Shown in pieces: positions 4,986 to 29,056 of a DNA stretch of 30,201 nucleotides; the stretch's first letter is position 1; the number at the start of each line of letters is the position of its first letter. A program made the position numbers and the translations under genes. The DNA lies in NCBI GenBank assembly GCA_020793555.1, contig DQIO01000332.1, positions 1-30,201 on the forward strand. The letters are read 5' to 3'. Under the pieces are notes generated by a model. It saw nothing but the letters and a program-made list of their open reading frames with translations, had not been told where the DNA came from and ran no database searches. Source of the DNA: Methanosarcinaceae archaeon. GTDB taxonomy: Archaea; Halobacteriota; Methanosarcinia; Methanosarcinales; Methanosarcinaceae.

Positions 4986-5174
4986 ATGACAATTATTAAG
5001 ATTAATGGCAGGAAAGCTTTGATAAAATACTTGGAAAGGATACCTCAGTTCCCATATAATGGGTTTGAAGAACTGGAGCAACTACTCAGGCGAGAATTGT
5101 GTATGAACAAAACAAATGCGAAAATTACATGGGATGTATCTATATATACCCCTTTGAACTCAAATATTCAATAG
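4986..5174 (+). CDS. doubtful small ORF (62 residues)
   Basis: The frame starts at an ATG at 4986 and overlaps the 3' end of the convergent phosphatase gene by 35 bases. The first 45 residues (INGRKALIKYLERIPQF and on) look like a short helical protein. The last 15 come from the overlap and look non-native. No TATA box or Shine-Dalgarno is evident. It may be a decayed small gene or chance. No family is recognised. Confidence 0.3.
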   Translation: MTIIKINGRKALIKYLERIPQFPYNGFEELEQLLRRELCMNKTNAKITWDVSIYTPLNSNIQ

Positions 5175-5820
5175 CCTCAACCGCACCATCGCCAAAGGAT
5201 GCTTTTGTCACATGATCTGCAGCCTTTTTAGCTTCAGCATCACCATTCGCAACAGCGATTCCAAAACCTGCCGATTGGATCATTTCAGCATCGTTCACAG
5301 AATCTCCGATCGCAACAAAATCAGCAGGGGTCAAACCCATAAATTTTGCTATATTTTTTAAACCGGTATTTTTATTAATTTTATTGCTTTTTATATGGAT
5401 CGCATACTTGGTATCGATGATCTCAACCTCTAAATCCTGGGTCTTGAGCATTTCCCTGGCTTTTTCCATATCAAAATCTCTTCTAAGAGCAATTTCTGTT
5501 TTGCGATATTCAGGATCTAGTTTTGTCAGATCATAATGTTTTGACAGAAACTTGAACGCTTTTTCACATTCCTCAATATTATCGGAAATAATAGGTGATT
5601 TATCGTATCCGGTAAGAATCACTCCCCCGTTCTCAGCGATCACATAACCCTTAAGACCTATCAACTTTGCAGTAGCTATGGCATAACAGGAGATGTTGCC
5701 TGTTGCCAGCACAACGGGGATATCAAGGGTACGAAGCGTTTCTGCTGCCCGAAGGTTTAAACGTCGGTCCTTGTGTGTGATCGTACCGTCAATATCCAGA
5801 ACAATGGCTTTGAATTTCAT
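5140..5820 (-). CDS. archaeal phosphoglycolate phosphatase, HAD superfamily
   Basis: This HAD hydrolase of 226 residues matches the archaeal phosphoglycolate phosphatase/sucrose-phosphatase-like (Cof, subclass IIB) type. Motif I is VLDIDGTIT, with the nucleophile and acid/base aspartates near the N-terminus. Motif II is the ATGN segment, motif III is a Lys in the IKSNKINKNTGL segment, and motif IV is GDSVNDAEM. A cap domain lies between motifs II and III. The family removes phosphate from 2-phosphoglycolate, a product of DNA repair and side reactions. A TTG two codons upstream is the longest possible start; the ATG at 5818-5820 giving MKFKAI is preferred. It lies 75 bases downstream of radA on the same strand and might be co-transcribed with it. 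Substrate is inferred from family. Confidence 0.85.
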   Translation of the reverse strand: MKFKAIVLDIDGTITHKDRRLNLRAAETLRTLDIPVVLATGNISCYAIATAKLIGLKGYVIAENGGVILTGYDKSPIISDNIEECEKAFKFLSKHYDLTKLDPEYRKTEIALRRDFDMEKAREMLKTQDLEVEIIDTKYAIHIKSNKINKNTGLKNIAKFMGLTPADFVAIGDSVNDAEMIQSAGFGIAVANGDAEAKKAADHVTKASFGDGAVEAIEYLSSKGYI

Positions 5821-5895
5821 ACCCAATAGATTGTATCACATGGATTAAACAATTGCCCTATATCCAATCCAATATCGGTGGTATTGTTGGTACTA

Positions 5896-6870
5896 TTAAT
5901 CAACCAACCCATCGGTTGTGACAGATATTATAGCCTCTCCGTCAGGTAGATTTGGAGAATCCACAAGGCGTATGATCCTCTTGTCGCCTTTTGATTTCCT
6001 GAGATACAACCTGAATGTAGCAGTGTGTCCTAATATATGTCCGCCTATCGGTTTGGTGGGATCGCCAAAGAATGCATCCGGTTTTGACATTACCTGGTTC
6101 GTGACGACCACTGTTGAGTTATAGAGGTCACCGAATCGCTGGAGTCCGTGCAGGTGCTTGTTGAGTTTTTGCTGCCTGTCGGCAAGGGTGCCCCTGCCCA
6201 CATACTCTGCCCTGAAATGTGCTGTCAACGAATCCACGATCAATAATCGCACAGGTTTATCGGTTTCCTTAAGTTCATTCGCAAGCTCCATTGCAGAGTC
6301 CACAAGAAGTATCTGGTGATTTGAATTGTATGCACGTGCCACGTGTATATTTTTCAGGAATTCCTCAGGGTCGTACTCAACACCCTCTCTTTCCGAAAGA
6401 CCCTGTACCATCTGTTTGATCCGCTCAGGTCTGAAAGTGTTTTCCGTATCGATCATTATCACTGAACCGTCAAGTCCCCCCTGCTCCCTTGGGAGTTGAA
6501 CATTCACGGCAAGCTGGTGTGCGACCTGGGTCTTTCCTGAACCGAACTCGCCATACATCTCTGTGATCGCCTGAGACTCGATTCCCCCTCCCATCATCTC
6601 ATCAAACTCAACACATCCTGTAGAGAGTTTTCCGACAAGTTTCCTGCGCTCAAGTACCATATCCCCTGTCTCGAATCCGCCAATATCGGCAGACTGTCGC
6701 GCAAAATTGATAATCTTTGCTGCTGTCGATTCCCCTATCTCGGCAGTGTTCGCAAGTTCTGCAGGTGATGCAACCGCAACCGCTTCAATAGTATTGAACC
6801 CTGCTTCTTTTAACTTCTCTGCCGTTGCCGGGCCAACGCCTGGCAGTTCCTCTAACAATATTTCAGACAT
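5896..6870 (-). CDS. radA: RadA recombinase
   Basis: RadA is the archaeal RecA/Rad51 orthologue that forms filaments on single-stranded DNA and drives strand exchange. The 324-residue protein has an N-terminal helix-hairpin-helix domain ([12 protein letters not shown], residues about 9-20). The ATPase core has Walker A GEFGSGKT (107-114) and Walker B LLIVDS. The loop [14 protein letters not shown], typical of RadA, and no intein are also visible. The frame extends eight codons upstream to a GTG, but the ATG at 6868-6870 has GAGGAG nine bases ahead and gives the usual MSEI start. A TATA box on the minus strand near 6943-6950 predicts a leader of about 50 bases. Confidence 0.97.
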
Positions 6871-6942
6871 TTTTAGTAACTCCTCTCGGTGCACATGGTT
6901 AGTTTAGGTGCACAATTTATCATTTTACTATAGTTTTGTAGG

Positions 6943-6950
6943 TATATATA
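6943..6950 (-). promoter_or_regulatory. radA promoter (TATA box)
   Basis: Read on the minus strand the sequence is AATTATATATACC, a good archaeal TATA box about 75 bases before the radA start. The predicted transcript start is near 6920. In the leader, GGTGCACA occurs twice in direct orientation on the plus strand (6888-6895 and 6907-6914), 19 bases apart, and could be a regulator site. The decayed transposase ends only about 35 bases upstream of the TATA box. Confidence 0.6.
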
Positions 6951-6983
6951 ATTGAGGCAAGCGGGGTGAAAGTATTGTATGCC

Positions 6984-7449
6984 TCATGAAAGCCAAGATA
7001 ACTTAATCCGTTCATCCTCAGTTGTAAATTACCAATTAACTTTCGCATTTTTGTTGTTTCTAAATTTCTACCAGCCAGTACCTCTTTCCTGACAAACTCA
7101 ATGTCATCGATTCTTCTGTTTAAACACTGCCCTGTGAGCACGTTCAACTCAATCTCGGCCATATTCAACCAACTCCCATGCTTTGGAGTGTACACAAACT
7201 CGAATCTGTCCAATATTGTTTTTGCCTTATCCGGCTGAAACGTTTCATAGAGCGATCCTGGAACGTGTGTGTTCAGATTGTCCATCACCACGTTATTTTT
7301 TCTGCTGTTTCGTATTGATCCCCAATCTCCTCCAAAAAATAAGCCCAATCCTGCTTGATTCTTCTTTCTGTGACCTTCACCATGCGCTTTCCTGCCAATG
7401 GCTCACAGGCAATAAAAATATTGCACATACCGCAACGCCTTCGGGTGGC
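6984..7449 (-). pseudogene. decayed IS630-family transposase, 3' part
   Basis: The remnant matches the C-terminal DDE half of IS630-type transposases in three minus-strand frames joined by two frameshifts. In order, they read GMCNIFIACEPLAGKR, then TERRIKQDWAYFLEEIGDQY. After a shift near 7300 comes VVMDNLNTHVPGSLYE and YTPKHGSWLNMAEIEL, which carries catalytic Asp and Glu. After another shift near 7050 comes FTTEDERIKLSWLS, just after a stop that replaces a Gln codon (WQF became W-stop-F). The N-terminal helix-turn-helix half is missing. A 142-codon open frame at 6920-7348 covers only the middle and reads out of frame at both ends. The element is clearly inactive. Confidence 0.85.
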
Positions 7450-7685
7450 TCACCGCAACTAACTGCAACCAAATGAGCTTCAAAATCCCCGTCAGTTTTT
7501 TTATTTTTAAAAAAATGTCACCGAGTCCAGGAGGTAAATTTGTGAGAATTGAGGGTTTTTAGGGATTTAAGTTGCGATGCAACATGGAGTTTGCATTGTT
7601 TTGTCAAATTAGAAATGCTGAATATTGGAGATAATCAGATAATGTCAAAAAGTAACAAGAATTAATACGAAACACTTCGAAATCC

Positions 7686-7694
7686 TTATATAAT
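7686..7694 (+). promoter_or_regulatory. promoter of the cohesin-transporter locus
   Basis: CTTATATAATGG places a TATA box about 30 bases before the start codon at 7721, predicting a near-leaderless transcript. The other spaces in the plus-strand gene run through 14583 are short (19, 62 and 58 bases, then overlaps), so this is the most likely main promoter for the whole locus. Confidence 0.55.
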
Positions 7695-7720
7695 GGTTAT
7701 TAGTATGACAAATATCACAC

Positions 7721-8302
7721 ATGATATTATCAAAAATACTCTCAAGAATTGCCATAATTTCAATGATATTGATACTGTTTATGAATCCCGCAACAGCATA
7801 CCAGACAAACGTAAATGTTAATGCCCCTGAAAAAGCGGATAATGATTTCAGTGTCATAATAGAGATTGAGAATGTCACTGACCTGGATTCAGGGCAGTTT
7901 GATCTCCATTTTGATCCGGCACTCGTGCGCGTCACAGGCATAGATGATGGGACTATCGCCAAAACAACAATACCAATTGCTGACTGGGCCTCTGTAAGTA
8001 AAAATACCATTCGGGTGCTCTTCAATCTTCCCGATATAGATGGCGTGTCAGGAACAGGAACCCTTGCAACGATACACTTCGAGACGATAGTTCCCGGAGA
8101 TTGCGTTATAGATGTATCTGACGGATTGCTTGTTAATACTATGGCACAGGTGATACCTGCAAACTGGAACGGTGTCCGGAGTGTCGTACCCAACATACCG
8201 GTTTCTACAGATGAAGCCGAACATAAAACACCCGGACCCGGGCCACTATTCCTGATAAGTGCAATTGCAGCAGCGTTTCTTGTGTCCAGGAAAAAGGAAT
8301 AA
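7721..8302 (+). CDS. cell-surface cohesin-domain protein with C-terminal membrane anchor
   Basis: This 193-residue exported protein has a signal peptide (residues 1-26, ending ATA before YQ). It is followed by a single cohesin-type beta-sandwich domain (about 28-155). Cohesin-like signatures are SGQFDLHFDPALVRVTGI, GTGTLATIHFETI and the closing GLLVNTMAQVIP. After a short acidic/Pro linker (TPGPGP) comes a hydrophobic segment ending in SRKKE, a C-terminal membrane anchor resembling archaeal PGF-CTERM tails. Cohesin modules bind dockerin modules. The very next gene, 19 bases downstream, encodes a binding protein with a dockerin. That adjacency suggests this protein is the membrane-bound receptor for its neighbour. 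The domain call rests on pattern recognition of a divergent fold; the pairing is inferred. Confidence 0.8.
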   Translation: MILSKILSRIAIISMILILFMNPATAYQTNVNVNAPEKADNDFSVIIEIENVTDLDSGQFDLHFDPALVRVTGIDDGTIAKTTIPIADWASVSKNTIRVLFNLPDIDGVSGTGTLATIHFETIVPGDCVIDVSDGLLVNTMAQVIPANWNGVRSVVPNIPVSTDEAEHKTPGPGPLFLISAIAAAFLVSRKKE

Positions 8303-8321
8303 AGTATACTCGGTGATCTAC

Positions 8322-10043
8322 ATGAAAATAAAAATTCGATTCGGAATATTCATAAGCATACTGCTTTTGGTATTGATACCATCCGTAAGTGCGCATCTCT
8401 ATGGAGATGCAAATGAAGACACATATATCAATATGCAGGATGTGACCAGGCTAGAGCGAATAGTCCTTGAATATGATCCCACCACCACACCAGCCGATGC
8501 AAACCAGGATGATAATGTAAATATGCAGGATGTCACCCTCATCGAGTCAATTATCCTTGAGCAGGTCCCGTTTCCTGGTGGACATCTGAACGCAGCGATG
8601 ATATTCGGACCTTCAAGCACACTTGACCCAGCGAATGGATGGAATGGATGGTATGTGAGGAAAGCCGGTATCTATGAAACGCTGTTCAAATACGACGATA
8701 AGATGAAACTCACACCGGAACTTGCTACCGGGTATACACAGGAAAATGATACCGAATGGCTCATCCATTTGCGAGAGGATGTTGTATTTCATGACGGCAG
8801 TCCATTTAATGCGGATGCTGTGGTGTATTCCTTTGCCCGGGTCATGAATGAATCAAATTCAAGATCCAGCGAGTATGATCACATTGCCTCTATTACGATA
8901 GAGGATGAACACACGGTAAGGATCACTACAGCCGAGCCGTATGCGCCAACCATAGCAAGCCTGACAAATCCACTCGTTTCCATAGTAAGTCCTGATGCTG
9001 ACAATCTCGACACTCATCCTGTGGGTACAGGTCCTTTCATGTATGATAGTTATGAGCAGGAAGTAAGTCTTTCTGTTGTTAGAAATGAGAAATATTGGGG
9101 CGGAGGGGTCAGGCTCGAAGGTGCAACTTTATCCTATATCAGTGCTGGTGAAACCAGGGCATTGACGCTGGAAAGCAAGGACAATGATATTGCGAGGGGT
9201 CTGCCATTTCCCCAGGTAAGCACAATAGAGAGCAATCCCGGTCTTAATGTCATGAGTAAAGAGACAATGCGTCTTTACTTTATATTTGTGAACACCGGAA
9301 AAGCACCCCTCGATGATATCAGGGTAAGGCAGGCGATCAATTATGCCATCGATCGTGATGTGATTGTTGATGCGGCTTTGGAAGGTGTTGGCGGCGTTCC
9401 GGCTGCTGGTGTGTTCCCATCGATCTTCCCGTGGACAAACGTTGAACTCACTGGATATACGCATAGTAAAGATACAGCACTATCATTGCTGGCAGATGCA
9501 GGGATCACCGACATCGATAGTGACGGTATGCTGGAATATAATGGAGAGGATTTCCATCTTACCCTTATGACGTATACTACACGGGCTGCAATGCAACCCA
9601 GTGCAGAAGTGATTGAAACCCAGCTGGAAGATATCGGTATTGATGTGACCGTTGAACTCCTTGGATCATCTGCCATAAAAGAAGCGATGACCAATGGAGA
9701 TTATGATATGGCATTTTATTCATATGGTGTGGCACCAACTGGTGATCCTGACTATTTCCTGACCCATCATTTCGACTCAACAGCCGGGTACAAAGAGAAC
9801 GGATGGATTCGTTACTCCAATCCTGCAGTAGATTCGCTGTTAGCAGATTCAAGGGCTGCTATGGATCAGGATGTCAGGAAGGAATATTACGATCAGGTAC
9901 AGGATATCATTGTGGAAGAATGTCCTGAGATGTTCATTTTCCATGAAAATGAACTTGTGGGGTATAATACCGGGGTTATGGGTTATGCAATATATCCAAA
10001 CGAGATAACCTTCCTCACCAGGGACATGTATATCGGGAGATAG
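8322..10043 (+). CDS. family 5 solute-binding protein with N-terminal dockerin
   Basis: This 573-residue exported protein is the binding component of a Dpp/Opp/Nik-type ABC importer. A signal peptide (1-24, ending SVSA) is followed by a dockerin of two calcium-loop repeats, GDANEDTYINMQDV (28-41) and ADANQDDNVNMQDV (58-71), each with a helix after it. The family 5 binding domain (about 88-573) contains YETLFKYDDKMKLTPELA, WLIHLREDVVFHDGSPFNADAVVYSF and VRQAINYAIDRD. No lipobox Cys or membrane anchor is seen, so the dockerin may be the means of attachment. The frame extends 21 codons upstream, but ATG 8322 has GGTGAT at 8312-8317 and opens the signal peptide. The ligand could be a peptide, nickel or a metal chelate; the sequence does not decide. 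Confidence 0.93.
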   Translation: MKIKIRFGIFISILLLVLIPSVSAHLYGDANEDTYINMQDVTRLERIVLEYDPTTTPADANQDDNVNMQDVTLIESIILEQVPFPGGHLNAAMIFGPSSTLDPANGWNGWYVRKAGIYETLFKYDDKMKLTPELATGYTQENDTEWLIHLREDVVFHDGSPFNADAVVYSFARVMNESNSRSSEYDHIASITIEDEHTVRITTAEPYAPTIASLTNPLVSIVSPDADNLDTHPVGTGPFMYDSYEQEVSLSVVRNEKYWGGGVRLEGATLSYISAGETRALTLESKDNDIARGLPFPQVSTIESNPGLNVMSKETMRLYFIFVNTGKAPLDDIRVRQAINYAIDRDVIVDAALEGVGGVPAAGVFPSIFPWTNVELTGYTHSKDTALSLLADAGITDIDSDGMLEYNGEDFHLTLMTYTTRAAMQPSAEVIETQLEDIGIDVTVELLGSSAIKEAMTNGDYDMAFYSYGVAPTGDPDYFLTHHFDSTAGYKENGWIRYSNPAVDSLLADSRAAMDQDVRKEYYDQVQDIIVEECPEMFIFHENELVGYNTGVMGYAIYPNEITFLTRDMYIGR

Positions 10044-10105
10044 TGGTGTAGATATAGGAATTCCAGGCAAAATGGTATAAAAGACATTTAGAAAGGAGCC
10101 TATCA

Positions 10106-10852
10106 ATGGATGTTAAAAGCATTATCAGGTTGTACTGGGATAAAAGAAGCCAGACCTACGGTAAAAATACATATAGATCACCGGATGAAGCGCAGCACCT
10201 CTGGAAGGGCATATTAAAAAATGCGATTTGCACAGATGAGCGCCTAAGGATCTTGGATGTCGGAATAGGTACCGGATTTTTAGCTCTGCTTTTTTCTGAA
10301 ATGGGGCACAACGTCACAGGTATTGATATCTCCAAATGCATGCTGAGTAAGACAAGGTGTAACGCTGATAAAATGGGATTAAATGTTGATCTGATACATG
10401 CTGATGCGGAAAACTTGCCTGTTAAAGATGAATATTTTGACATTGTGATTAACAGGCATCTTCTCTGGACTATACCAAATCCAGGGACTGCTGTCAATGA
10501 ATGGAGCCGCACTGTGAGGACAGGGGGTAAGATCATTTTGATCGATGGAAAGTGGCACGATTATGCAATCGATATGCGTTTGCGTAGATTTATTAGCAAG
10601 ATGCTCGTTTTCATGACTGAAAAACGGGATCCACGTCTATTCACGAGCCATTATGATAGTATAAAAGACCGCTTACAATTTTTTTATGGAAGTACACCAG
10701 ACAATGTTATTGATTTATTCAGCAAAGCAGGATTAAAGAACATATCAATGAACAATCTTGAAGAACTTGAGAAATTTGAAACAAAAAACAGACCCCTGGC
10801 ATATAGAATTGCAAATAAACCATCACTTTATTTAGCAATTGGGGAAAAATAA
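10106..10852 (+). CDS. class I SAM-dependent methyltransferase within the transporter locus
   Basis: This is a cytoplasmic methyltransferase of 248 residues. Motif I, ILDVGIGTGFLALLF, follows LR at about residue 50. The SAM ribose-binding acidic residue is in VTGIDISK, and motifs ADAENLPVKDEYFDIVI and RTGGKIILIDGKW complete the Rossmann fold. The C-terminal third is helical and should define the acceptor. The acceptor is unknown. AAAGGAG lies seven bases before the ATG. The gene sits between the solute-binding protein and the permeases of one importer, 62 and 58 bases away. That suggests it acts on the imported compound or on something made to capture it, such as a metallophore, but this is inference. 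Confidence 0.85.
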   Translation: MDVKSIIRLYWDKRSQTYGKNTYRSPDEAQHLWKGILKNAICTDERLRILDVGIGTGFLALLFSEMGHNVTGIDISKCMLSKTRCNADKMGLNVDLIHADAENLPVKDEYFDIVINRHLLWTIPNPGTAVNEWSRTVRTGGKIILIDGKWHDYAIDMRLRRFISKMLVFMTEKRDPRLFTSHYDSIKDRLQFFYGSTPDNVIDLFSKAGLKNISMNNLEELEKFETKNRPLAYRIANKPSLYLAIGEK

Positions 10853-10910
10853 CATAAAATTCCAGTGGATCTAAACAGCAGGTTTAAACATTACCATAGG
10901 TACAATAAAC

Positions 10911-11855
10911 ATGCTTGGCTATATATTGAAACGGATATTTCAGTTGATCCCTGCACTGCTGTTGGTTTCAGTAGCGAGTTTTTCGATAATCTATTTTGCA
11001 CCCGGCGATCCTGCAGAAACGCTGATGACAGGACCTGATGGTAATGTAAACCCAAAATCAGTAGAGGAATTCCGGACTAAAATGGGTCTTGATAAACCAC
11101 TGCATATTCAGTATCTCATCTGGTTGAACAATGTTGTACACGGTAATTTTGGATACTCGTACCGAACCGAAAAACCGGTTTTTGACCATATAAAAACATC
11201 ATTTGGAGCCACATTCAAGCTTGCAGTCGTAAGCCTGATCATTTCACTGATCATCTCGATCCCACTTGGGATCATCTCTGCGATCAAACATAATTCAGGC
11301 CTGGACATATCCTGTATGGTTGGTGCATCGCTGGGAGTTTCCATGCCAAATTTCTGGCTGGGACTGCTACTTATGCTGCTTTTTGGGATATATCTTGACT
11401 GGCTTCCTGTTGCAGGTTATGGAACTGGCGGTGATCTTGAACATATCATATTACCAGCCTTGACACTGGGAACTGGTTCTGCTGCAGTCACTGCAAGATT
11501 AATGAGATCGAGTATGCTAGAGGTACTCGGGCAGGACTATATACTGACAGCTCGTGCAAAAGGTGTGCCTGAATGGATGGTCATTGGCAAACACGCCCTG
11601 AAAAACGCCCTGATCCCTTTTGTGACCATGGTCGGCCTGAATTTTGGATATCTGTTAAACGGTTCGGTTGTGGTCGAAACAATCTTTGGCTGGCCTGGTA
11701 TTGGCAGGTTGATAGTTGATTCAATTAACATGAGGGATTATATGATGGTTCAGGGATGCATGGTATTTGTTGCCCTTCTTTTTGTGACAGTCAATCTGGT
11801 CGTTGACATTTCATATCGATATCTTGATCCGAGGATCCGCTATGAAAAAGCATAA
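10911..11855 (+). CDS. ABC importer permease, DppB/OppB/NikB type
   Basis: This 314-residue integral membrane protein is the first permease half of a peptide/nickel-type ABC importer. It has the family N-terminus (MLGYILKRIFQLIPALLLVS, then FAPGDPAE) and about six membrane helices. The EAA coupling loop is ARAKGVPEWMVIGKHALKNALIP (about residues 210-232), and the C-terminal segment is ETIFGWPGIGRL. It follows the methyltransferase and overlaps the next permease by 14 bases. It should pair with the next gene in the membrane and receive ligand from the dockerin-bearing binding protein. Confidence 0.92.
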   Translation: MLGYILKRIFQLIPALLLVSVASFSIIYFAPGDPAETLMTGPDGNVNPKSVEEFRTKMGLDKPLHIQYLIWLNNVVHGNFGYSYRTEKPVFDHIKTSFGATFKLAVVSLIISLIISIPLGIISAIKHNSGLDISCMVGASLGVSMPNFWLGLLLMLLFGIYLDWLPVAGYGTGGDLEHIILPALTLGTGSAAVTARLMRSSMLEVLGQDYILTARAKGVPEWMVIGKHALKNALIPFVTMVGLNFGYLLNGSVVVETIFGWPGIGRLIVDSINMRDYMMVQGCMVFVALLFVTVNLVVDISYRYLDPRIRYEKA

Positions 11856-12705
11856 CAACCCGTTTATGGATAATATCAGGCGGCTCAGTGATAGCAGACC
11901 GGCGACTGTTGGCGCTATTATTATCATGCTGCTTTGCTTCATAGCAGTTTTTGCGCCCCAGTTATCACCAAATAACCCGACCACGGCGTGTTTGGAAGAT
12001 CGGCTGATATCTCCACTCACAGTACCCGAATATCCGCTTGGAACAGACCATCTGGGGAGATGTGTTCTATCCAGGTTGTTATACGGTGCCCGTATCTCGC
12101 TCATAGTAGGGATTATCGTGGTTGGTATATCCGCAATGATTGGCATTGCACTCGGGGTCATTTCAGGATATTATGGCGGGGTAATTGATGCTGTGATCAT
12201 GCGTTTTGTTGATGCCACCCTATCGTTTCCAAGCATATTTTTAGCTGTAACGATCGCAGGTCTGCTCGGACGAGGGCTTCCCAGTGTTATAATCGCCTTG
12301 ATTGTAGTAGATTGGACAGCTTATGCTCGTATTTCACGGGGTTCGGTACTATCATTAAAAGAGACGGAATTTGTGGAATCAGCAAGATCACTTGGCGCAA
12401 GCGACTGTTATATCATGACACGCCACATACTTCCGAATATCATCGGTCCGGTGATCGTGATAGGAACGCTTGGTATGGCTTATGTGATACTTTCAGCGGC
12501 AGCCTTGAGCTTTCTTGGTTTTGGACCACAGCCCCCAACACCGGAATGGGGTGCAATGTTGAACGCTGGTCGCATGTATATGCGGACAGAACCTTATCTT
12601 ACAATCATTCCCGGAATTGCGATAATGGTCATGGTACTGGCTTTTAATCTCCTCGGAGACGGGCTGCGGGATATACTGGATCCGAAAAAAACGGTGATTG
12701 AGTGA
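11842..12705 (+). CDS. ABC importer permease, DppC/OppC/NikC type
   Basis: This second permease has 287 residues, starting from the ATG at 11842. GAGG lies eight bases upstream, inside the end of the preceding permease gene. A longer frame from 11803 would add 13 residues that only shadow the upstream gene, so it is rejected. Family features are an N-terminal cytoplasmic stretch and first helix, then YPLGTDHLGRCVLSRLLYGAR, typical of DppC. The EAA loop is SARSLGASDCYIMTRHILPN and the end is LLGDGLRDILDPK. It forms the channel with the preceding permease. The next gene starts within its stop codon (GTGA overlap). Confidence 0.93.
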   Translation: MKKHNNPFMDNIRRLSDSRPATVGAIIIMLLCFIAVFAPQLSPNNPTTACLEDRLISPLTVPEYPLGTDHLGRCVLSRLLYGARISLIVGIIVVGISAMIGIALGVISGYYGGVIDAVIMRFVDATLSFPSIFLAVTIAGLLGRGLPSVIIALIVVDWTAYARISRGSVLSLKETEFVESARSLGASDCYIMTRHILPNIIGPVIVIGTLGMAYVILSAAALSFLGFGPQPPTPEWGAMLNAGRMYMRTEPYLTIIPGIAIMVMVLAFNLLGDGLRDILDPKKTVIE

Positions 12706-13634
12706 ACTTACTTGAAATAATCGACCTGAAAACCCACTTTCCAACTTCCAACGGCCTCGTAAAAGCAGTTGATACTATAGATATGAGTATCTCTGAACAA
12801 GAGACATTTGGCCTCATAGGTGAAACAGGCTGTGGTAAATCTGTGCTCGGACACTCGATTATACGTCTTTTGCAGTCAGATACAGTAATGAAAGGGAAGA
12901 TAATCTACAAAGGAAAAAACTTGCTTGAGATCAGCGAGGCAGAGATGAGAAACATCAGGGGGGAAGAGATAGCAATGATCCTACAGAATCCGACAACGTC
13001 TCTTAATCCGGTTATTACTGTAGGGGAACAAATCGCTGAAGCTATCAGGTTACATCAGCGGCTGAATAAAAAGGATGCGAAACAAAAGGCGATCGAAATG
13101 CTCGAAGCGGTCAGGATACCGTCGCCGTCCCAACGGGCAAATGAATATCCACATGAGTTTAGCGGGGGAATGAAACAGCGAGTGATGATCGCAATGGGGC
13201 TTGCATGTGATCCTGCACTGGTCATTGCAGACGAACCCACAAAGGGACTTGATGTTACAATCAAGATACAGATCGTCGAATTGATGAAAGAGGTAACAGC
13301 CCAAAAGGCAATGCTCCTTATAACCCATGATCTCGGCGTGGCATCTGAAATGTGTGACCGTATAGCGCTTATGTATGCAGGAGAACTGGTGGAATATGCA
13401 TCAGTAATTGAGATTTTTGAAAATCCGTTGCACCCGTACACCATAGGTTTTCTGGACTCACTCCCTGGCAGGGGACTTGTACCGATACCAGGTATGAGCC
13501 CATCCCTGATCGATCTTCCGGATGGTTGCAGATTTCATCCCAGATGTAGCCATGTGATGGAAATATGCAGACAAAAGCATCCCGGGATGACCGAAATGAA
13601 AGACGGACATTTCGTGAGGTGTTTCCATGCTTGA
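12702..13634 (+). CDS. ABC importer ATPase, DppD/OppD type
   Basis: This 310-residue ATPase is one of two that power the importer. It shows Walker A GETGCGKS, Q-loop LQNPTTSLNP, signature FSGGMKQR, Walker B LVIADEPT and switch His in ITHDLGV. The C-terminal oligopeptide-type extension has cysteines in CRFHPRCSHVMEIC and a final RCFHA. This Cys pattern is common in the family and has been linked to an iron-sulphur cluster in some OppD proteins. The start is GTG, with GGTGATTG just ahead, and overlaps the permease stop by four bases. The following ATPase gene overlaps by eight bases. Confidence 0.94.
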   Translation: MNLLEIIDLKTHFPTSNGLVKAVDTIDMSISEQETFGLIGETGCGKSVLGHSIIRLLQSDTVMKGKIIYKGKNLLEISEAEMRNIRGEEIAMILQNPTTSLNPVITVGEQIAEAIRLHQRLNKKDAKQKAIEMLEAVRIPSPSQRANEYPHEFSGGMKQRVMIAMGLACDPALVIADEPTKGLDVTIKIQIVELMKEVTAQKAMLLITHDLGVASEMCDRIALMYAGELVEYASVIEIFENPLHPYTIGFLDSLPGRGLVPIPGMSPSLIDLPDGCRFHPRCSHVMEICRQKHPGMTEMKDGHFVRCFHA

Positions 13635-14583
13635 AGTTGAAGGATTAACAAAGTATTTTTCTTCAGGATTGAACAAAAAACGCTCTGTTAAGGCAGTTGA
13701 TGGTGTTTCATTTAATATAGGTAAGGGTAAGACGCTTGGACTTGTCGGGGAGAGCGGATGCGGAAAAACGACGGTCGGCAGGTTGATCATGCGATTAATC
13801 GAACCAACAGCCGGGAAAGTATTATTCGATGGCATTGACCTTATTGCGTTGAACAGGAAAGAACTTCGTAATATCAGGCCGAGGATGCAGATGATATTCC
13901 AGGATCCTGATTCTTCGCTTGACCCGAGGATGAAGATCTCAGCCAGTATCGAAGAACCTTTGAGATTACATGGTACATATTCCAGGGACGAGAGAGAGCA
14001 GAAGGTTTTGGAATTGGTTAAAATCGTGGGACTGGGGCCAGAACATATTGAACGCTATCCATATCAACTAAGCGGTGGTCAGAACCAGCGCGTGGTGCTT
14101 GCACGGATTATGGCAATGAATCCGGATCTTATTATTGCAGATGAGCCTACATCCTCTCTGGATGTCTCGGTCCAGGCACAGATACTTAATCTTATGAAAG
14201 ATATGCAAAAGACGTTTAATCTCTCGTATCTTTTCATCTCTCATGATCTTGATGTTGTCAGGATAATGGCTGATCATATTGCAGTCATGTATCTTGGACG
14301 ACTGGTGGAGATTGGGGAAACAAACGATATTTTTAACAGCGCAAAGCACCCGTATACACAGGCTTTGCTGTTGGCTGCAACCAGATTGCAGCCAGGGGTC
14401 GGGGACGGAGCTGGACATGTGAAAGGAATAATTCTTAAAGGAGATACCCCGAGTCCGTTCGATATACCAACCGGATGCAGGTTTCATATGCGGTGTCCGC
14501 ACCAAAAAGATGTATGCCTGAGTCAGGAACCGGAATCGTTTGAGGTGGGAGTGGGGCATTATGTGGCATGTCATTTTGTCTGA
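13627..14583 (+). CDS. ABC importer ATPase, DppF/OppF type
   Basis: This 318-residue second ATPase of the importer has Walker A GESGCGKT, Q-loop FQDPDSSLDPRMKI, signature LSGGQNQRV and Walker B LIIADEPT. Its H-loop is ISHDLDV, and its C-terminal extension repeats the spaced cysteines (CRFHMRCPHQKDVC and a last VACHF). The ATG has GAGGTG eight bases ahead and lies in the end of the previous gene, so the two ATPases are translationally coupled. It is the last gene of the locus and is followed by 814 bases without a gene. Confidence 0.94.
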   Translation: MLEVEGLTKYFSSGLNKKRSVKAVDGVSFNIGKGKTLGLVGESGCGKTTVGRLIMRLIEPTAGKVLFDGIDLIALNRKELRNIRPRMQMIFQDPDSSLDPRMKISASIEEPLRLHGTYSRDEREQKVLELVKIVGLGPEHIERYPYQLSGGQNQRVVLARIMAMNPDLIIADEPTSSLDVSVQAQILNLMKDMQKTFNLSYLFISHDLDVVRIMADHIAVMYLGRLVEIGETNDIFNSAKHPYTQALLLAATRLQPGVGDGAGHVKGIILKGDTPSPFDIPTGCRFHMRCPHQKDVCLSQEPESFEVGVGHYVACHFV

Positions 14584-15397: not shown

Positions 15398-16630
15398 ATG
15401 GGAAATAAAATATTCATAGTATTTGCTATGATTTGTGTATTGTTAGGGACAATCGGAATGGCAAGTGCCCATCAAACATGGATGGAGATTGATGCTATGT
15501 GCGTTGATCTTGATGAGAACGTCGAGGTTAGAATTACTGAAGGACACGGCTTTGTTAGCGAAGGTATACCACCAAATGATTTGTCAGCAGAACTGGTCGA
15601 ACCTGATGGTTCAATAATTACTCTGGATAAAACAGCTGAAGATGAAATGTACTGGTATTCCGGTTTCGAAGCAGATCAAATCGGACTATATACCATTCTT
15701 GGGACCCATATAGAAGAATATTTTCATAAAGTCTATACAGGACCTGGATCGAGAGAGGATTATCCCACTTATAATTACACCTATTTCGAGGGTGAAGTTG
15801 ACTGGGATGAGATTGATAAATCAAGGTGGGCAGATGACTGGCATGTAGTGCAATATTACAAACCATACAAATATCTGAAAACCTTTGTGAGCACAAATAG
15901 TAACTTCTACGGAACCGACAATGCTTTTGAACAGAAATTTGAAATCATTCCCGTTGATGATGTATCAACATTAGGGACTGGTGATTTTGAATTCAAAGTG
16001 TTATTTAACGGGAGACCGCTGCCAAATGGTACTGTAAAGATAAGTGGTACAAATAGTGAAGGCGCCGATGGAGTAAGTGCAATATGTGATGAAAATGGCA
16101 GGGCAGTACTTCCACTGAATTCTAATGGTGACTGGTTGATATCTGCCGGTGCAGCAGGCGATTACTGGGACGGAGAATATAATGGTGATTTCCCACACGG
16201 AGATTATTATTCTGAAGGAGACTTAGCTTTTGTAGGAAATACATATTCAGCAGCTTTAACGTTACTGGAAATTCGTGAGAGCAATACAGCTACCATGCGA
16301 ACGAAAATAAGGCCCCAAATAGAGTTCAACATGAATCCGTCATACTTTAACTTTGGTGAACTTGACCCTGGTGATATGAGTGATGTTGAAACTGCTGTAA
16401 TCCAGAATCTGGGATCAAAAGACCTAGTGATAAGTGTGAGTGTAGAAGATATGAGTGGATTATACACAACAGGACTTCAGATCGATGATACTTTGTGGAG
16501 TGAGTACAAAGTCGAAATCTTGAAGGACGATTTCGCTTCATTGGATCTACAATTGCATGTTCCTGGAAACTTTGTCGGTTCTGGTGAAATGATGGGAACA
16601 ATAATCATCTGGTCAGAAGCTATTAATTAG
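15398..16630 (+). CDS. secreted DUF4198-domain protein
   Basis: This 410-residue exported protein has a clear signal peptide (residues 1-24, ending MASA before HQTW). The mature protein begins with AHQTWMEID, then VEVRITEGHGF, and later has FNGRPLPNGTVKISGTN and ENGRAVLPLNSNGDWLIS. These match DUF4198 proteins, some of which accompany nickel or cobalt uptake systems. The first His of the mature protein is typical and could bind metal. The last 110 residues (from IRPQIEFNMN) form a separate beta-rich domain resembling immunoglobulin-like surface modules. No C-terminal anchor is visible. GGAGAGG lies eight bases before the ATG. It follows the Dpp/Nik-type importer by 0.8 kb, so a role with that importer is possible but unproven. 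Confidence 0.75.
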   Translation: MGNKIFIVFAMICVLLGTIGMASAHQTWMEIDAMCVDLDENVEVRITEGHGFVSEGIPPNDLSAELVEPDGSIITLDKTAEDEMYWYSGFEADQIGLYTILGTHIEEYFHKVYTGPGSREDYPTYNYTYFEGEVDWDEIDKSRWADDWHVVQYYKPYKYLKTFVSTNSNFYGTDNAFEQKFEIIPVDDVSTLGTGDFEFKVLFNGRPLPNGTVKISGTNSEGADGVSAICDENGRAVLPLNSNGDWLISAGAAGDYWDGEYNGDFPHGDYYSEGDLAFVGNTYSAALTLLEIRESNTATMRTKIRPQIEFNMNPSYFNFGELDPGDMSDVETAVIQNLGSKDLVISVSVEDMSGLYTTGLQIDDTLWSEYKVEILKDDFASLDLQLHVPGNFVGSGEMMGTIIIWSEAIN

Positions 16631-16661: not shown

Positions 16662-17219
16662 ATGATTTTTTCAATAAGGCTTTTAAATAAAGCATTTAAT
16701 AATAGTAAGAATATGAAATTTAGAATTGCTGGAATTGGAATTTTATCAATATTATGTTACATATTTATCTTTACTTTATGTGTATCTGCCATAGGTATCG
16801 GTGTAAATCCTGCAAAACTTGAAATTGGAATTGAAAACGGTGAAAGTATCCAGAAGAACATTACCATCTCAAATCCGGATAATATAGACCTTGCATTTCA
16901 TATATACACAGACGATGAATTTAATGACTGGATAACAATAGTTGAACCAAATTTTTCACTGGGACCATATCAGGAAAAGGAGGTATACATCCATTTTACA
17001 CCATTGACAGAAAAAGTAGGGAGATTCAACACAACAATATATGCAGTTGCTCTCAATCCAGATAGTAACCTTAACCTGGGCAGCGGTGTAAAAATACCAG
17101 TAAATATAAATCTTGAAAAAGCAACAACTTCATTCTATACTAATCCTGTGATTATTGTATTAATCCTAGTTGTATTTATACTGATTTTTCTTTCTATGAG
17201 ATATCGAAGGAACTCATGA
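16662..17219 (+). CDS. small membrane-anchored extracellular beta-domain protein
   Basis: This protein of up to 185 residues has an N-terminal hydrophobic signal (FRIAGIGILSILCYIFIFTL). An extracellular beta-sandwich of about 110 residues follows (GIGVNPAKLEIGIENGE, KNITISNPDNID, and YQEKEVYIHFTPLTEKVGRFNTT). The C-terminal membrane helix ends in RYRRNS. The pattern resembles immunoglobulin-like domains in archaeal surface proteins that polish or anchor the envelope; no function is assigned. The ATG at 16662 has no clear ribosome site. An ATG at 16713 (MKFRIAGIG) gives a better signal peptide and may be the real start. It probably works with the secreted DUF4198 protein just upstream, an inference from adjacency. 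Confidence 0.7.
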   Translation: MIFSIRLLNKAFNNSKNMKFRIAGIGILSILCYIFIFTLCVSAIGIGVNPAKLEIGIENGESIQKNITISNPDNIDLAFHIYTDDEFNDWITIVEPNFSLGPYQEKEVYIHFTPLTEKVGRFNTTIYAVALNPDSNLNLGSGVKIPVNINLEKATTSFYTNPVIIVLILVVFILIFLSMRYRRNS

Positions 17220-17909: not shown

Positions 17910-18142
17910 GATAGAAAATTTAGATAGAAAATTTAGATAATAATCTTCGGTAGATGATTTAGATAATAATCTTCGGTAGATGATTTAGATAATAATCTTC
18001 GGTAGATGATTTAGATAATAATCTTCGGTAGATGATTTAGATAATAATCTTCGGTAGATGATTTAGATAATAATCTTCGGTAGATGATTTAGATAATAAT
18101 CTTCGGTAGATGATTTAGATAATAATCTTCGGTAGATGATTT
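17910..18142. repeat. tandem repeat array: eight 26-bp units
   Basis: Eight consecutive 26-bp units run from 17936 to 18142. They are identical except that the last lacks the final base. The core is AATCTTCGGTAGATGATT. Two further 13-bp units, GATAGAAAATTTA, precede them at 17910-17935, so the array has a 13-bp sub-period. Each unit contains ATCT-TCGGT-AGAT, a small dyad. There are no spacers, so it is not CRISPR. Period 26 is not a multiple of three and no frame is coding. The array ends 42 bases before the start of the CBS gene at 18185, in its promoter region. Regulator binding sites or polymerase-slippage expansion are both possible. Confidence 0.9.
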
Positions 18143-27772: not shown

Positions 27773-29056
27773 TCAGACAAACATTGCTTCGGGGTGTGTT
27801 CCTGTTGATTGTTGCACGGATTTTGATACTTTTTCGATCGCATCAATAAAATCATACATATCCACTGATTCCTTGTCGGCACGTATAGCAAGCATGCCTG
27901 CTTCTGTTGCAATGGCTTTTATGTCTGCACCGCTTGAACCTTCAGTGAGCCTTGCCAATTTGCCAAAATCAATGTCATTGGAGATTGCCATATTCTCAAT
28001 ATGTATCCTGATGATATGTTCCCTGGCTTCGATATCCGGCATCGGGACCTCTACCACACGGTCAAATCGGCCCGGTCGCAGTATTGCAGGGTCAAGGGCA
28101 TCCGGTCGGTTTGTTGCAGCAATAAGCCGTACTTCACCACGACTGTCGAACCCGTCCATCTCGGACAACAGTTGCATGAGGGTTCGCTGTACTTCGCGAT
28201 CTGCTCCGCTTGTTTCGTTCAATCGTATAGTCGCTATTGCATCCAATTCATCAATAAATATTATACTTGGTGCCTTTTTCCTTGCCATCTCAAAAATATC
28301 GTGCACAAGTTTTGCACCATCACCTATGTATTTTTGGACAAGTTCCGAGCCAACCACCCTGATAAAAGTAGCATCCGTCCTGTTGGCAACAGCTTTTGCA
28401 AGCAGTGTTTTTCCAGAACCGGGCGGACCATATAAAAGAACACCTTTTGGCGGCGTAATACCTATGCGTTCAAATGTTTCCGGCTTTTTGAGAGGCAGTT
28501 CAACAGACTCCACAAGTTCCTGTATCTGTGCATCAAGTCCACCAATCCTGTTATAGTCTATATCAGGCGATTCAATAATCTCCATGGCACTAACCATTGG
28601 CTCTTCAGTTGATGGAATTATATCCACGACCGCAAGTGTGTGCTGGTTTAATGCCACCTTTGCACCAACCACAAGCGCATCATCTTCAATGTACTGTGAT
28701 ACATTTACCATAAACTGTGGACCTGTGGTACTTCTTACCAACACCTTGTCACTGTCAACCACATCCAGAATTGTTCCGACAATAAGAGGTGCCGCTTTTA
28801 ACTTGTCGATCTCAGCCTGCATCCTGCGAAGTTCACGCTCATATTTTAGTTTCTGATTCTCCACAAAACGCTTTTCGGATCTGATCTGGTCACATTGTTC
28901 CCTTAAAAAAATATTTCTTGCTTCTAGCTGTTTCATTCGATCCAGCATATATTTAGAAAAATCTTTGTCACTATCAACTCCGACATGGTCATAACTTTTT
29001 GTACCCATACCGGTAATTTCATAGTTTTCACTTTCTACAGTATCACTATCAATCAT
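27773..29056 (-). CDS. pan: proteasome-activating nucleotidase (PAN)
   Basis: This 427-residue AAA ATPase matches PAN, the hexameric unfoldase that feeds proteins to the archaeal 20S proteasome. In order: an acidic N-terminal tail (1-30), a coiled coil (about 34-88), an OB-type domain (about 90-150), and the AAA domain. The AAA domain has Walker A GPPGSGKT (210-217), Walker [12 protein letters not shown], sensor 1 [12 protein letters not shown] and arginine fingers in RPGRFDR. The C-terminus ends EAMFV, so the docking motif hydrophobic-Tyr-X appears as Met-Phe-Val. Phe in place of Tyr may weaken or alter proteasome gating. The ATG has GGAG five bases ahead. A minus-strand TATA box lies at 29088-29095. 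Confidence 0.95.

Follow-up and report, generated by a model that had tools for sequence, protein, structure and literature searches.

How is the binding protein of an importer kept at the surface of an archaeal cell when it carries none of the usual anchors? Outside Gram-negative periplasms, a lipid or a membrane tail normally holds such proteins in place. The question is raised by contig DQIO01000332.1 (positions 1 to 30,201; the whole of this stretch is termed the window) of a Methanosarcinaceae archaeon (assembly GCA_020793555.1, here G000), which belongs to group 3 of the anaerobic methanotrophic archaea (ANME-3). On its forward strand, the gene for a single anchored cohesin (P0001, 7721..8302) is followed on the same strand, after 19 bases, by the gene for a family 5 solute-binding protein (P0002, 8322..10043) of an ATP-binding cassette (ABC) importer. 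P0002 bears a dockerin where an anchor would be expected. Comparison with other genomes indicates that this dockerin very probably acts as a non-covalent anchor, and that P0001 is probably its socket in this organism.

P0001 comprises a signal peptide, a cohesin module (about residues 27-155), a spacer and a C-terminal hydrophobic stretch with RKKE. It scores 38.9 bits against Pfam Cohesin (PF00963; curated cut-off 24.1), and its cohesin fold is supported, with an archaeal cohesin of Archaeoglobus fulgidus (2xdh) as the best Foldseek match. The cohesin likeness of residues 28-155, on which a first-pass annotation of this DNA had staked its interpretation, is borne out by both results. P0002 consists of a signal peptide, an N-terminal dockerin and a family 5 body, and matches SBP_bac_5 (300 bits, E 2.5e-89) and Dockerin_1 (PF00404; 26.8 bits against a cut-off of 22.9, E 6.2e-6). 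Its dockerin module (residues 27-82; 8400..8567 on the forward strand, Pfam match 8400-8549) has two calcium loops with internal symmetry. The canonical dockerin calcium-loop pattern is D-x-N-x-D-3x-N-2x-D; both loops match it, 14 of 25 positions are identical between them, and the loop pair occurs in none of 20,000 residue shuffles of P0002. The Pfam matches and coordinates agree with what the first-pass annotation had described, namely a signal-bearing anchored cohesin, a family 5 binding protein 19 bases on, and two dockerin calcium-loop repeats at the mature N-terminus of the latter. P0002 has no other anchor motif.

In the proposed mechanism, P0001 would be a membrane-anchored socket and P0002 a binding protein in which a dockerin plug has been exchanged for the covalent anchor. 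After secretion, P0001 would stay in the archaeal membrane through its C-terminal tail, perhaps with processing by an archaeosortase, and would display its cohesin in the space below the S-layer. P0002 would be secreted without a lipid, and its calcium-loaded N-terminal dockerin would dock on the P0001 cohesin, which would keep the receptor beside the Opp/Nik-type permeases and ATPases of the same operon. The binding of P0001 to P0002, its need for calcium and the use of one socket by several binding proteins are what we infer.

The case for a dockerin as anchor rests on binding proteins from the fetched loci. The set contains 91 distinct complete proteins of at least 300 residues that resemble eight query proteins, after removal of 55 duplicates and 11 truncated frames; it is not a census, and L176, L177 and L179, which have a C-terminal tail and no dockerin, lie outside it. 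Dockerins were called with a local profile built, like the local cohesin profile, from these loci and looser than Pfam. By this profile 71 of the 91 have a dockerin (67 N-terminal, 4 C-terminal), and none of the 71 has a lipobox or a C-terminal helix; ten had been flagged with a C-terminal helix under a loose rule and were cleared by a stricter one. The lipid anchor on the binding protein that would have spoken against tethering was looked for and found neither on P0002 nor on any of the 71. Among the 20 proteins without a dockerin, a lipobox is present in 13 by rule (10 by eye) and a C-terminal helix in 6, which gives one or the other in 16 to 19 of them. A Fisher test of lipobox against dockerin gives 4e-11, or 2.9e-8 with a lipobox count of 10. 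Three rows with a doubtful lipobox and one anchorless row have just one EF-hand-like loop behind the signal peptide. In L180, L182 and L188 (all G096), which are PF01497 binding proteins, such a single loop replaces the two-loop dockerin at that place.

One family 5 subfamily, with bodies 34-39% identical, contains both solutions. L161, L162, L173, L174 and L175 end in a helix tail, and L156, L160 and L165 have a C-terminal dockerin at the same alignment point. Genomes G091 and G096 each contain both forms. We regard this exchange of tail for dockerin among paralogues as the strongest functional evidence for the anchor role.

The gene order also recurs. Named genomes were scanned with an alignment of 18 anchor cohesins, which yielded 68 loci (in another search, 30 of 44 matches became loci). 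Retrieval was by cohesin only, but the 18 queries had been picked partly with knowledge of their neighbours, and where several candidate frames lay near the cohesin end the dockerin-bearing one was chosen first. The count covers 48 frames with a single cohesin, 150-300 residues, no dockerin and a hydrophobic C-terminus; one of them (L078) is the DNA of the window itself and represents it in the correlation analysis and in the tree. For 31 of the 48, a gene with a dockerin is found no more than 260 bases downstream. These neighbours are 16 PF01497-type and 3 family 5 binding proteins, 11 scaffoldins and 1 truncated frame with a scaffoldin-type dockerin, so that the search for the same two-gene order, suggested at first pass, finds an anchored cohesin gene before a dockerin-bearing binding protein in 19 of 48 cases. 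The next gene lacks a dockerin in 10, of which 8 belong to a different cohesin family (C-terminus IYSFIGLLAF or similar) that precedes another cohesin gene; L095 and L109 make up the remainder. The last 7 have no called gene after them, six near contig ends and one (L130) with a short dockerin frame separate from the rest. The 31 pairs span ANME-3, ANME-2, other Methanosarcinales bins, Ethanoperedens, Argoarchaeum, ANME-1, Methanosarcina and the bacterium Desulfospira joergensenii. Another locus, L129, bears the label Desulfuromonadales but encodes a binding protein much like those of ANME-2; the contig may be archaeal and misplaced.

ANME-2-type loci have a longer form, in which the anchor precedes a scaffoldin that has its dockerin at the N-terminus and as many as four visible cohesins (several are cut by contig ends). 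Where they are followed, these scaffoldins precede binding proteins (L081, L083, L098); a dockerin-bearing binding protein comes next in L081 and L083, in the latter with a methyltransferase and ATPases of the same operon. Judged by gene order, the window is the two-part form of this arrangement. Giant ANME-2c scaffoldin-like proteins of 3144 and 1415 residues (L096:9809-19243 and 5558-9805) have an N-terminal dockerin and several cohesins. The second anchored-cohesin family (L091:201-2433, L094, L095, L104, L125, L126, L135 and L139), with a C-terminus like IYSFIGLLAFIYTL, precedes another cohesin gene in the 8 cases called and lies after importer ATPases in L094 and L126. In L102, L103, L117 and L120 (4/4), the cohesin and binding-protein genes are in one frame, split by TGA and two codons (TGA TGC TGT/TAT ATG).

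Paired cohesins and dockerins also diverge together. Across 20 direct pairs, distance correlations are 0.76 between cohesin and dockerin, 0.63 between dockerin and body and 0.44 between cohesin and body, and the partial cohesin-dockerin correlation given the body is 0.69 (permutation p 0.0002, a value that is too small because the permutations ignore shared ancestry). The 15 PF01497 pairs give 0.73, 0.66 and 0.43, with a partial correlation of 0.67. In direct pairs, the divergence of the dockerin follows that of the cohesin, the product of another gene, no less closely than that of the body to which the dockerin is fused. Ten loci contain two to six dockerin-bearing binding proteins, and in all 33 within-locus pairs the dockerins are more alike than the bodies (mean identities 85% and 40%); 15 of these pairs come from the ANME-1 locus L128, in which six binding proteins have dockerins 85-100% identical, and in L118 the two proteins of the pair belong to different families. 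Dockerins that stay alike while their bodies diverge would fit interchangeable receptors for one socket, which lends some support to the first-pass suggestion that the binding protein could be swapped.

Several results weigh against P0001 as the socket or against parts of the mechanism, beyond the inflated significance already noted. Duplication with a conserved N-terminal region would also yield similar dockerins within loci. In the 11 scaffoldin pairs (0.41, 0.58 and 0.59 in the same order of comparisons), the cohesin-dockerin link is gone given the rest of the scaffoldin (partial 0.11, p 0.30). PF01497-type dockerins are less certain than the family 5 ones: a Pfam scan at E 0.001 finds Dockerin_1 in 2 of 11 (L105 over the cut-off, L133 below it), the remaining nine being called by the local profile, and their first loop usually starts with N and not D, whereas all five family 5 dockerins scanned (P0002, L092, L098, L118 and L138) exceed the Pfam cut-off. 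The tail of P0001 is a PGP variant of the PGF-CTERM-like tail and does not match the PGF-CTERM model TIGR04126 even at E 1; 12 of 18 anchor-cohesin relatives match it at E up to 1 (best 2.5e-7), and the motif in 120 proteins examined is PGF in 83, SGF in 20, PGP in 13 (P0001 included), PGL in 1 and absent in 3. No archaeosortase A scores over the cut-off in G000 (2,557,143 bases in 334 contigs, about 93% complete); one does in 9 of 12 genomes tested and in 2 of the 5 ANME-3 genomes among those tested (G001 and G004). P0001 would either stay transmembrane or be trimmed and lipid-linked. In two AlphaFold2 runs on artificial single chains, the modules were predicted with confidence but their docking was not; the predicted template modelling scores (pTM), from which alone docking was judged, were 0.52 and 0.49, against our own expectation of 0.48-0.52 for independent modules and 0.62-0.65 for docked ones. 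Linkers of about 65-75 residues with two hydrophobic helices, together with few paired alignment rows, make this weak negative evidence.

These results bear on where the plug of P0002 goes. It may anchor P0002 to another cohesin, on a scaffoldin or a second anchor, with P0001 binding a different dockerin as its ANME-2 kin may do; the ANME-3 operon would then be the remnant of a three-tier system minus its scaffoldin. The anchor tree speaks for this reading in part: P0001 groups as sister with L092, where a family 5 protein likewise follows directly (88/92 support), and both sit in a clade that mostly precedes scaffoldins with a different dockerin type. Family 5 proteins of ANME-2 type have dockerins 60-76% identical to that of P0002, and in L083 and L098 such a protein comes directly after a scaffoldin; the lack of confident docking points the same way. 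The tree needs 3 changes of partner type, of which well-supported branches force only 1, and because of such changes adjacency alone does not fix who binds whom. Yet the direct two-part pairs fall into four distinct tree groups, and no gene with an N-terminal dockerin and several cohesins was seen at the five cohesin places of G000, a negative to be read with the incompleteness of the genome and with the frames on its contig C49. That contig (L004/L006) carries, in this order, a short cohesin frame, a short dockerin frame with the strongest Pfam dockerin match of G000, and another cohesin gene, perhaps one broken gene and a neighbour. Residue 88 is N in 12/12 scaffoldin-partnered anchors and D, D, G and S in the clade's four direct anchors, a weak point; a wider switch of specificity residues between the two kinds of anchor was rejected, with column 88 the only one of 58 to stand out and only a hint. 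Direct anchors score anchor-like overall and none is near the scaffoldin-internal type, although the anchor scores are not leave-one-out. On balance, docking of P0002 elsewhere than on P0001 is unlikely.

Two further explanations would do without a tether for import. The modules could serve cell-cell or matrix assembly in a consortium, the binding protein being shown on the matrix or a partner cell; in the literature consulted (PMC9012536, PMC5244752 and PMC10553843), cohesin and dockerin proteins of ANME and their bacterial partners are proposed for such assembly, and the ANME genes are discussed mainly as adhesion parts. The importer operons are nevertheless complete, dockerin and membrane anchor replace each other on proteins of one kind, and the module is present in Methanosarcina strains, all of which make assembly an improbable role here. 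Vestigial modules that have lost binding, with P0002 a free diffusible protein below the S-layer, would also agree with models that do not dock confidently, but both calcium loops are intact and the modules have been kept across many lineages with correlated change, so we regard this as the least probable of the explanations. The first-pass claim that the cohesin is the membrane receptor hence gains from recurrence, from exclusion and exchange of anchors and from co-divergence, and loses from the absence of confident docking and from nearest kin that lie mostly before scaffoldins.

The module is also found with importers of another class. In Methanosarcina L105 (2.H.T.1A.6) and L133 (DH2), a cohesin is followed by a PF01497-type dockerin-bearing binding protein, DUF4198, a methyltransferase, one gene, a FecCD permease and an ATPase; L122 (M. 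spelaei) has a cohesin, dockerin-bearing binding protein, methyltransferase, FecCD and ATPase. L116 of Desulfospira joergensenii encodes a TonB receptor, a methyltransferase, a cohesin, two dockerin-bearing binding proteins, a FecCD permease and an ATPase; the organism (DSM 10085) is a Gram-negative sulfate reducer, and its cohesin has a C-terminal tail. FecCD operons with both partners indicate that the module is not tied to the Opp/Nik class. A broader and more tentative proposal, which may well not hold in full, is plug-in import: each operon would provide one anchored socket, which scaffoldins multiply in ANME-2 and ANME-1, for several interchangeable binding proteins that share one kind of dockerin. 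The module would be independent of importer class and would have passed between archaea and at least one bacterial sulfate reducer. If true, this would let a cell adapt one importer to various metal chelates or peptides by a change of binding protein.

In the window, the family 5 importer set (Opp/Dpp/Nik) is complete in one forward-strand operon, with a binding protein, two permeases and two ATPases. P0002 is followed by a UbiE-like class I S-adenosylmethionine methyltransferase (10106..10852; PF08241, 2e-23), permease B (10911..11855; BPD_transp_1 3.3e-46; NCBIfam Opp2B 375.4 bits, cut-off 350) and permease C (11803..12705; BPD_transp_1 1.3e-32; Opp2C 306.1 bits, cut-off 300), both of Opp/Nik type, and then by an OppD-like ATPase D (12702..13634; ABC_tran 8.6e-27 and oligo_HPY) and a DppF/OppF-like ATPase F (13627..14583; ABC_tran 1.8e-33 and oligo_HPY). 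The listed start of permease C is a TTG that gives a 53-base overlap with permease B; the true start may be more internal. Pfam and NCBIfam thus uphold the permeases and ATPases noted at first pass, where the intervening methyltransferase was overlooked. The ANME-2-type operon L083 has a similar gene at the equivalent position, and the FecCD-type clusters L105, L122, L133 and L116 also contain methyltransferase genes. The closest solved chain to P0002 by sequence is a nickel-binding protein (3t66, E 1.8e-62), and P0002 falls far short of the NikA equivalog cut-offs (NF045468, 320.9 against 600; TIGR02294, 200.8 against 393). The substrate is probably a nickel chelate, a metallophore or a small peptide. 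After a gap of 814 bases the operon is followed by a DUF4198 protein (15398-16630), and a DUF4198 gene also lies 3' of the dockerin-bearing binding protein in Methanosarcina L100, L105 and L133. A perfect tandem array (17931-18142; 26-base unit, 8.2 copies, 100% matches) sits between the gene at 16662-17219 and CBS-domain genes.

The origin of the operon appears to differ from that of its host. Mis-binning of the contig into ANME-3 was rejected, as its RadA, a single copy in G000, is 99, 97, 95, 93 and 93% identical to those of five same-genus genomes and at most 87% identical to RadA elsewhere in the compared list. Contig C205 of G004 (an HMMV ANME-3 bin and one of those five genomes; L059, L078) was rejected as an independent second copy, being 99.97% identical to the window over 11,204 bp and so probably the same DNA in two assemblies. 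A conserved ANME-3 site was likewise rejected for the pieces fetched: beside RadA in G001, G003 and G005 only window 5119-6976 (HAD and RadA genes) recurs, with extra short matches only to 28053-28543, and the operon is not there. The closest relatives of P0001 in 119 genomes (G004 aside) are 53-68% identical and belong to other families of the order; in other genera of its own family identity is at most 29% among the matches listed, and Methanosarcina loci reach 34-41%. The position of the operon away from RadA in relatives, a transposase fragment upstream (6920-7348) and the distance of the closest cohesins together suggest that it was acquired by transfer.

Part of this system has been described. 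Chadwick et al. (2022; PMC9012536) describe, for ANME-1, -2a and -2c, binding proteins of NikA/OppA and TroA type that bear dockerins, as well as proteins with several cohesins, and their section leaves undecided which modules bind each other. Neither a paired anchor cohesin in the operon nor an exchange of anchors nor tethering for import is named there. The first-pass remark that no described transporter uses this mode is to that extent too broad, since dockerin-bearing ABC binding proteins were on record, and may hold for the paired anchor cohesin. No report of a paired anchor cohesin or of anchor exchange appears among the open-access matches listed, judged by title and start of abstract, with subscription papers and supplements outside that scope. 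The paired socket and the anchor exchange would thus be new; dockerins on ANME binding proteins were known already. An ABC importer with a non-covalent tether, possibly an exchangeable one, would be built on a different principle, and some of the many ANME cohesin and dockerin genes would gain a function. Cultured hosts that carry the module are Methanosarcina strains and Desulfospira joergensenii.

Three known systems invite comparison. PGF-CTERM-anchored ABC binding proteins (TIGR04281) are also held through a C-terminal PGF-type tail. At E up to 1, 4 of 18 anchor cohesins match that model too, and the tail presumably accounts for these matches; here the tail belongs to a separate cohesin protein. 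The non-cellulosomal cohesin of Archaeoglobus fulgidus (2xdh) is archaeal as well and is the nearest structural match; we know of no transporter context for it. The cellulosome combines surface-anchored scaffoldin cohesins with calcium-loop dockerins on enzymes. No scaffoldin was found among the window proteins scanned or seen at the five cohesin places of G000, so the window does not qualify as a cellulosome. The likeness lies in the surface-anchored cohesin, the calcium-loop dockerin and, in ANME-2 loci, a two-tier arrangement with scaffoldins, whereas the cargo here is an ABC binding protein and not an enzyme, the anchor tail is PGF-CTERM-like and the window has a single cohesin.

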